Shown one piece after another: positions 3,300 through 57,334 of a stretch of DNA of 64,000 nt. The notes under the pieces were generated by a model. That model did not search any database and was not told the origin of the DNA. It saw only the letters and a program-made list of their open reading frames with translations. The DNA comes from Levilactobacillus tangyuanensis (GTDB lineage: Bacteria; Bacillota; Bacilli; Lactobacillales; Lactobacillaceae): assembly GCF_003946545.1 (NCBI RefSeq), contig NZ_RHOA01000005.1:1-64000 (forward strand), in the 5' to 3' direction. The stretch's first letter is position 1. Each line of letters begins with the position of its first letter. A program made the position numbers and the translations under genes.

Positions 3300-3405
3300 G
3301 TTGTATTTGTGGACTTCCACAGCTGCAACCGCTCGGAATAAGTCTTAAGTTTTCCGCCTTGCGGAGCACTTATCTTCGGCGAGTCTAAGTCTAAATATAT
3401 AAGGA
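3300..3405 (+). promoter_or_regulatory. Ribosomal protein L21 leader (autoregulatory mRNA leader)
   Basis: The transcribed leader between the promoter and rplU is about 115 nt with several hairpins: GTGG/CCAC at 3309-3320, and competing CGGAA/TTCCG and TCCGC/GCGGA pairings around 3333-3365. Position and composition fit the L21 leader family of Firmicutes, where free L21 represses its own operon. The family call rests mainly on position and was not checked against a covariance model. Confidence 0.6.
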
Positions 3406-35062: not shown

Positions 35063-35072
35063 GTTTTGAGCG

Positions 35073-35106
35073 AGTCCGGGCCGCACCTTTTCGTCCCGGG
35101 CTTTTT
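35073..35106 (+). terminator. Terminator after acpP
   Basis: 8-bp stem AGTCCGGG/CCCGGGCT with one G-T pair, 14-nt loop and five T. Confidence 0.8.
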
Positions 35107-35130
35107 CAATCTTTTTAGGGTGATCGTGTC

Positions 35131-35329
35131 CGCCTTACCGGTTGGCCCGGTGGGGGCTGGAACGCGGTGGGCACGGCTAGCAGCCTCAAAGAACGAGTCT
35201 GTTAGTCCGACCTTTTCCTAGGCCGAGAGAATCACTCGACCAAGGAAAATTTCACCACTGAGCCCCCACCGGACCAACCTCACGGCTCTGATCGACCTGC
35301 AAGGTTGAAATGGGTGGTCCGGTAAGGCG
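35131..35329. repeat. GC-rich structured element, copy 1
   Basis: This fills the acpP-rnc gap. Nested long-range inverted repeats: perfect 11-bp ends CGCCTTACCGG (35131-35141) and CCGGTAAGGCG (35319-35329); a 19-bp arm pair (35140-35158 with 35261-35279, 18 of 19). The core hairpin is 15 bp (35213-35227 with 35235-35249, two mismatches) with the 7-nt loop AGAATCA. The strand before the hairpin (about 35160-35215) shares GTGGG, CAGCC, AAAG, GTCTGTT and CGAC with the element at 56994. No credible ORF. It may be a structured RNA or a nonautonomous mobile repeat. Confidence 0.7.
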
Positions 35330-35373
35330 ACCTTTGTCATCGGTAAGAAATTAGGAAATGAGGGAAATAGCAC

Positions 35374-56967: not shown

Positions 56968-56993
56968 GCTTTAGTTGAATGTTGGCCGCCTAC

Positions 56994-57162
56994 GGCCGCC
57001 AGGGCGGGTGTTCGCCGTGGGGACCGCCACCAGCCAAAGGGCGGTCTGTTGGCTCGACTTGAAGCCGCCCAAGCCCGACGTCTCCAAGCTCGTCCCCTGG
57101 TGTAGGTTGGCAGAGAACGCCAACCTACACCAGCGACACCGCTCACGCCCGCCCTGACGGCC
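56994..57162. repeat. GC-rich structured element, copy 2
   Basis: Lies in the 449-bp gap between kup and yjeM. End arms GGCCGCCAGGGCGGG (56994-57008) and CCCGCCCTGACGGCC (57148-57162) are inverted (14 of 15). The core is a perfect 15-bp stem (57097-57111 with 57119-57133) with the 7-nt loop AGAGAAC. The strand before it (about 57013-57060) matches copy 1 at 35131: CGTGGG, CAGCC, AAAG, GTCTGTT, CGACTT. Its outer bounds are uncertain. The rest of the gap (57163-57334) shows nothing recognisable apart from the terminator at 57338. Confidence 0.7.
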
Positions 57163-57334
57163 TCCGGCTTGGATCGACCGTGCCGCGAGAACCGGATTGA
57201 TGCGGTGGTTACAAATCCTGGCATAAGCTTTGGGATGCATCATCGGTTGCGTCCTGAAGTTTAAGGGAATGGTAACCGGGCCGGTTTTGTCAGATGATAA
57301 ACGGCGTTAGTTTATCGATTCAATAATTTTAGTT

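Follow-up and report, generated by a model that had tools for sequence, protein, structure and literature searches.

The window analysed here, a stretch of 64,000 nucleotides of Levilactobacillus tangyuanensis (contig NZ_RHOA01000005.1, positions 1 to 64,000), carries two structured intergenic modules, one after acpP and one downstream of kup (Table 1). Regarding the latter, inspection of the sequence located the perfect 15-bp stem, with its 7-nt loop starting with AGA, exactly where the preliminary description had placed it, and the RNA fold of positions 56980-57185 reached -106.7 kcal/mol with z = -4.8, none of 200 shuffles being equally stable. The stem had been regarded as the core of the module: it is real and fully paired, but it is not the core feature of the family, and an A-A mismatch (TGTAA / TAACA; judged by eye) occupies this position in most of the 10 aligned type B copies but not in the window copy, so that the perfect stem looks, from the aligned letters, like a derived variant.

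As for the copy after acpP, its RNA fold gave z = -6.98, again with none of 200 shuffles equally stable, and it is followed by the remnant of a second, inverted arm; the closest congener (G048) retains more of this second arm at the acpP-rnc site, without the first one.

Table 1. Coordinates of the two modules in the window and of other inserts elsewhere (R1 and R2, covariance models of type A and type B arms; positions without a locus label refer to the window)
Feature	Position	Strand	Evidence
Type A arm after acpP, first copy	35127..35293	+	R1, E 1.4e-34 (copy in the R1 training set)
Remnant of second, inverted arm (terminal GTCCGCCTTACCGG, inverted)	35313..35331	-	sequence
Whole structured module after kup, solo type B arm	56983..57173	+	R2, 191.6 bits, full model length (member of the R2 training set; high score expected by construction)
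Outer (closing) stem, 5' side; partner ~57145-57156	57000..57011	+	fold; consensus fold of 10 type B copies
Inner hairpin region 1, motif CAGCC AAAG GTCT	57020..57055	+	sequence; type B consensus fold
Inner hairpin 2, CGACTTGAAGCC ... GTCTCCAAGCTCG, C-U mismatch, common to type A	57055..57092	+	consensus folds, alignment (match to type A judged by eye)
Inner hairpin 3, perfect 15-bp stem with 7-nt loop	57097..57133	+	fold, alignment, sequence
Hairpin 3, stem 5' side CTGGTGTAGGTTGGC	57097-57111	+	sequence
Hairpin 3, loop AGAGAAC	57112-57118	+	sequence
Hairpin 3, stem 3' side GCCAACCTACACCAG	57119-57133	+	sequence
Outer stem, 3' side	57145..57156	+	fold; consensus fold of 10 type B copies
Third kind of insert	kup site L254, L258, L274; acpP-rnc site L291, L296, L301		start ~GAGTG..ACCAAGG / GAGTGCAGAACAAGG, towards the end GCGCACGTTTCGGC or similar
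Truncated armless element, L. plantarum and L. paracasei plasmids	L362:3501-3630, L361:3501-3640, L363:3501-3640

Two arm types of one superfamily

The genome of the window (G000; 2.19 Mb in 35 contigs) contains many relatives of both modules. DNA searches of this genome returned 10 matches at E ≤ 1e-3 for the type B copy of the window and 32 at E ≤ 1 for the 35131 copy, each count including the query. Two covariance models were built separately, R1 for type A from 29 aligned own-genome copies and R2 for type B from 10 copies; R1 had 64 matches at E ≤ 0.1 (best 150 of 443 candidates scored) and R2 had 65 at E ≤ 1e-6 (best 150 of 715), corresponding to at least 34 type A and at least 42 type B arms among the candidates scored. 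Since each model finds members of the other (R2 at window 35127-35291 with E 1.3e-12, R1 at window 57017-57175 with E 2.9e-4), the two window copies are homologous and of different subtypes. The kinship proposed earlier is therefore far above chance similarity, which the DNA searches and model matches rule out; the copy at 35131 is of type A and the one after kup of type B. R2 also matches type A arms of other species and genera, so that A and B form one superfamily.

The arms are branched and about 160-190 nt long. Type A folds as a three-way junction of an outer stem and two hairpins, the first of the GACTTTGAGCC...GGTCTCAAAGGTC kind with a C-U mismatch and the second of the form CCTAA...CTAAGG with an A-A mismatch (both mismatches seen by eye), joined by GGAACG and CTG.G, which are invariant in the own-genome copies; type B is a four-way junction with one additional hairpin of type A's first kind. 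Covariation in these folds is extensive. The 29 own-genome type A copies have pair-keeping double changes at 25 of 34 pairs and 94.4% of cells paired, against 33-51% in slid controls, and four of five covariation measures exceeded every one of 500 shuffles; the count of pair types did not (260/500). For 147 copies from other species (76 of 80 loci, fitted to the R1 model) the corresponding values are 32 of 34 pairs and 94.9% of cells, and all five measures exceeded all 500 shuffles. No Rfam family matched over an arm, either at the gathering score (the window plus 15 other arm-bearing loci) or up to E 1 (seven loci), and a known Rfam RNA family was rejected on these grounds; the sole Rfam match in the window is a ribosomal protein L21 leader at 3317-3396, and a Ref68 / Lacto-3 RNA at L327:589-722 precedes a unit of Levilactobacillus genome G023 by about 0.9 kb.

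Regarding its distribution, R1 matched in 22 of 23 congeners (in some of these the top matches are type-B-like) and in none of 16 genomes from other families of the same order (E ≤ 1e-3; at most 73 candidates scored per genome). A pattern scan with one genome per species gave at least 117 stretches; the 80 that were listed belong by title to Lactobacillaceae, with the exception of one Verrucomicrobiia contig (L125), and 76 of them have an R1 match (all but L101, L125, L132 and L141). Eight genera are named among the Lactobacillaceae (Levilactobacillus, Companilactobacillus, Pediococcus, Schleiferilactobacillus, Lacticaseibacillus, Lactiplantibacillus, Lapidilactobacillus and Limosilactobacillus), together with stretches from a few genomes named only Lactobacillus sp.; L125 and a viral contig (L364) matched the short pattern and not the model, and were discarded. 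Among the best 150 candidates scored, 135 arms were matched in G023 (of 677 candidates) and 131 in G003, hence this superfamily passes a hundred arms in some lactobacilli genomes, yet it has no Rfam match.

Paired arms, terminal repeats and variable sites

When several arms lie together, the usual unit consists of two inverted arms with their 5' ends outward and their 3' ends inward. Among the named loci, adjacent arms separated by less than 600 bp are arranged as 44 '+ -', 2 '+ +' and 2 '- -' (n = 48), those less than 800 bp apart in the own genome as 23 '+ -', 3 '+ +' and 5 '- -' (n = 31), and the 135 arms of G023 make 85 units, namely 47 '+ -', one '+ - -', one '+ +' and 36 single; the order '- +' has zero occurrences in these three sets, and its absence together with the dominance of '+ -' means that the arms face each other by their 3' ends. 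Of the 47 G023 pairs, 30 combine an arm that has a high R1 score with one that has a low score, so the two are of different subtypes. The spacer between paired arms spans about 30-370 bp (named loci), and the size of the unit is about 160-600 bp (G023 and Pediococcus). Three-arm clusters, '+ + -' or '+ - -', in which one side carries its two arms in tandem, were also seen (own-genome contigs C1, C7, C12, C32 and C34). This geometry disfavours the single arm as the mobile unit, although 36 of the 85 G023 units are single-armed.

The copies are almost all intergenic, with 1 of 147 overlapping an ORF of at least 100 aa once ORFs lying mostly inside elements are discounted. Both window copies do sit right after a terminated housekeeping gene, as initially pointed out, but this is no rule: both neighbours could be called for 117 of the 147 copies, and between co-directional neighbours 41 copies are in the sense of the genes and 43 antisense, an equality that leaves a 3'-UTR family of fixed sense orientation unsupported.

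The signs of mobility are clearest in Pediococcus. In P. ethanolidurans and P. damnosus, outer ends of about 74 bp, both beginning with CTAAAGGTTGAAAG (96 matches to this terminal repeat against 4 for the reversed-pattern control), enclose the unit, and the standard form is about 510 bp. Direct repeats of 7-8 bp (at most one mismatch) flank 21 of the 27 units that have both ends (24 from P. ethanolidurans, 3 from P. damnosus), compared with 25 of 702 when flanks are paired across different units; six of the 27 have no flanking duplication. Three short copies of 159, 184 and 184 bp have no arms, and as two of them carry perfect 8-bp duplications (8/8), the arms are probably dispensable for the jump. 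In Levilactobacillus, inverted ends CGCCTTACCGG (left) and CCGGTAAGGC (right) were recognized by eye in 10 of 20 G023 units, two of these ten being copies of one larger duplication, and no consistent target duplication was seen (20 G023 units; alignment of G023 with G046). The target-site duplications proposed as a check are thus shown for Pediococcus only.

Occupied and empty sites were both found. The acpP-rnc site (window 35063-35373; 30 loci) holds just 75-130 nt in 18 of 29 congener loci, a type B arm in three (L278, L280 and L281; R2), a decayed inverted arm in G048 (R1, E 2.5e-4) and other sequence of about 200-350 nt in the remaining ones. The kup site was readable in 19 of 30 loci, the other 11 being without a flank; five have about 100 nt only and no model match, L252 retains part of a type B arm, L253 carries a '+ -' pair made up of an A and a B arm, and G048 has apparently the first part of a B arm only (by eye, with no model match). 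Hence, relatives with empty sites, as suggested beforehand, exist at both positions. In other congeners both sites contain a third kind of structured-looking intergenic insert (Table 1), five of whose six loci were scanned against Rfam with no match. Between G023 and its close relative G046 (20 kb, 93-96% identity), one unit is absent from G046, one is clearly inverted at the same site, and another appears to be inverted, judging only by the strands of the matches. The absent unit was considered as a clean empty site and rejected, since its junction is imprecise and gives no readable duplication.

Regarding an autonomous partner, the Pediococcus genome and the plasmids examined yielded neither a transposase nor a full-length autonomous copy. 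Several contigs of Pediococcus genome G040 end within or near elements (L365-L372, L376, L377 and L383), and therefore short-read assemblies may under-report them; an autonomous element, suspected because terminal repeats occur at contig ends, was dismissed, as the breaks fall in or near arms where the sequence suffices to tell, with no long element seen. The 21-bp terminal repeat of the Pediococcus units also occurs on 7 plasmids of lactobacilli, and the four examined carry a different, truncated element with no R1 match (Table 1). As for the superfamily itself on plasmids, one Levilactobacillus query gave one partial match, and three other units and 4 kb of the window gave none, which speaks against a plasmid- or phage-borne carrier; such near-absence from plasmids is unusual for an active transposon and counts against the transposon reading given below.

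Copies are unevenly placed along the chromosome of G023, whose main contig (2,674,724 bp; the assembly of 5 contigs totals about 2.8 Mb) begins, by eye, with a dnaA-like and then a dnaN-like ORF. None of the 85 units, derived from the best 150 of 677 candidates scored with R1, lies within 929-1717 kb, a 29% stretch centred at 1323 kb, opposite the dnaA start; random placement would give such a gap with P about 2e-11, a value to be read knowing that the gap was chosen after being seen, and R2 has none there among the matches listed (best 150 of 1131 candidates scored). In G013, 2 of the 29 matches listed (of 36) fall within 0.81-2.13 Mb (origin position not established), and in G003 the copies are evenly spread, with longer, type-B-like matches. 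The window lies in the region matching the G023 gap (kup at 1.27 Mb and rnc at 1.22 Mb in G023), which agrees with the small number of copies in it, just two, and with the decay of at least one of these. The gap around the expected terminus, seen in one species with a thin zone in another, would offer a handle on the limits to insertion along the chromosome.

Interpretation and rival explanations

Taken together, the paired arms, the terminal repeats and duplications in Pediococcus, and the congener sites that are empty or differently decayed indicate that this superfamily is, with good probability, a foldback-type, MITE-like, non-autonomous DNA transposon of Lactobacillaceae, and the stretch after kup is a solo, decaying arm of it. 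The earlier suggestion of a nonautonomous element spread in this genome is borne out by the many copies, the empty sites, the inverted-pair unit and the Pediococcus ends. Mechanistically, a DDE-type transposase acting in trans would read the outer terminal repeats and move the unit; the branched arms would not be required in cis for the jump, in keeping with two of the three armless copies, and may have been retained because they favour the persistence or multiplication of the element, most probably through hairpins or cruciforms that the DNA forms at strand separation. Inserted copies would then slowly decay, often down to one arm, as in the window.

The alternative that the arms are functional structured RNAs, 3' UTRs or small RNAs whose RNA fold is selected and which were spread by transposition, appears improbable, even though part of the evidence is on its side: the covariation is very strong and recurs in other genera, and GGAACG and CTGAG are invariant in the own-genome copies. 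Conservation in place points the same way. Some loci of the window genome are collinear with loci of L. senmaizukei, and over 10 orthologous arms at 6 sites the identity is 92.8%, against 80.6% for the spacers, 91.8% for non-coding flanks and 90.0% for ORF flanks; changes affect 49 of 1014 paired and 64 of 575 unpaired letters, the structure being taken from single-sequence folds. The arms are thus not decaying freely at these sites, which speaks against a pure passenger role; a conservation above that of the spacer and about level with the flanks, with fewer changes at paired letters, hints at function in place, with slow mutation as the alternative. Against the RNA reading, there is no orientation bias relative to genes, the two arms of a unit point opposite ways, and single changes of Watson-Crick pairs at orthologous sites gave 10 G-U and 22 mismatches.

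The wobble pairs bear on the same question. In RNA helices G-U is usually far better tolerated than A-C and is as a rule much the commoner of the two. In the 147-copy alignment, the 29 helix columns with at least 80% Watson-Crick pairs contain 50 G-U and 45 A-C in 3932 cells, a filter that discards G-U-rich columns; without it, 33 pairs gave 99 G-U and 84 A-C in 4477 cells, the constant G-U column being omitted. In favour of RNA, that column is G-U in 126 of 128 cases, and column 72-146 has 25 G-U against 10 A-C. Alignment A1 (unfitted, 80% filter) has instead 6 G-U against 16 A-C in 868 cells, and the type B alignment (70% filter) 10 against 14 in 467. Control counts on tRNAs were set aside as small or affected by prior selection of paired positions: 17 tRNAs had 20 G-U and no A-C in 366 pairs, where ARAGORN may print only proper pairs, and tRNA acceptor stems taken by position, a badly framed count, had 5 and 4 in 119 pairs. 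Near-equal G-U and A-C would suit a constraint that acts on the two strands of the DNA alike or on hairpins formed by DNA, a hint of folded DNA rather than folded RNA; with the arms in opposite directions and so little G-U excess, the intergenic RNA family initially offered as one option is not favoured. The case also cautions that covariation, however strong, is not enough to identify an intergenic repeat as a functional RNA.

Slightly less probable than the RNA reading is that the covariation arose without selection, with template switching during replication perfecting imperfect palindromes. Double changes far outnumber single ones and include transversion-type swaps, and the window copy is perfect, without the A-A mismatch of most relatives, as such a process would give. 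However, blind correction would erase the A-A and C-U mismatches and the unpaired letters that are conserved in the own-genome copies; GGAACG and the junction G-U are conserved in other genera as well, and only two pairs have pair-keeping double changes between close species. The least probable of the alternatives, and very unlikely, is a REPIN-like system of inverted palindrome pairs moved by a tyrosine (HUH) transposase via single-stranded DNA. Transposition through a single strand is not known to leave target duplications, so this option is weakened by the 7-8 bp duplications of the Pediococcus units; the terminal inverted repeats of these units and the length of the arms, about 165-190 nt against 20-40, also stand against it, whereas the inverted doublets, heterodimer arms, hairpins and many intergenic copies do resemble REP doublets as described before (PMC3733652, PMC3116915).

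Within the transposon reading, a further and tentative proposal, which we regard as possible and doubtful, is that the branched fold, a three- or four-way junction whose mismatches are conserved, acts as single-stranded or cruciform DNA in the transposon and that replication shapes its spread, with type A excluded near the terminus and units flipping in place. The combination of transposon hallmarks with very strong covariation makes selection on folded DNA, beyond folded RNA, testable in bacteria.

Comparison with known systems

No description of this repeat family was found in the open literature, subscription papers being outside the scope. Eukaryotic Foldback and Mutator-type elements have long inverted arms that fold back, together with target duplications; the present units share such arms, with duplications of similar size, and differ in host, size and sequence, with no common transposase shown. 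The Enterococcus Efa elements (PMC1590033), compared by description only, are likewise intergenic structured repeats, in a related family of the same order; the type A model, however, had no match in 16 genomes of other families of that order.

REP/REPIN and CGTC-tagged repeats (PMC3116915, PMC3733652) are also intergenic inverted dimers, often heterodimers, with hairpins, and the CGTC repeats are likewise without a known transposase (PMC3733652); the text of the latter paper contains no word beginning with Firmicutes or Lactobac-. The arms described here are several times longer, at 160-190 nt, and branched, rather than a GTAG/CGTC tag with a 20-40 bp palindrome, and they belong to units with 7-8 bp duplications, seen in Pediococcus only, whereas REP elements are not known to leave any. 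Some Pediococcus and Companilactobacillus arms start with GCCGTC, which resembles the CGTC tag and nothing more.

Finally, ordinary MITEs are simple terminal-repeat elements and often have no matching autonomous element. The present element has the terminal inverted repeats, the target duplication (Pediococcus), the many copies of a size too short for a transposase and the occupied and empty sites of a MITE; an autonomous element with matching ends was absent from the Pediococcus genome and plasmids examined. Bacterial MITEs (reviewed in PMC10969869) are similarly short, with many intergenic copies, terminal inverted repeats, target duplications and no transposase of their own; the element described here differs from them in having two inverted, deeply covarying, branched modules over several genera.
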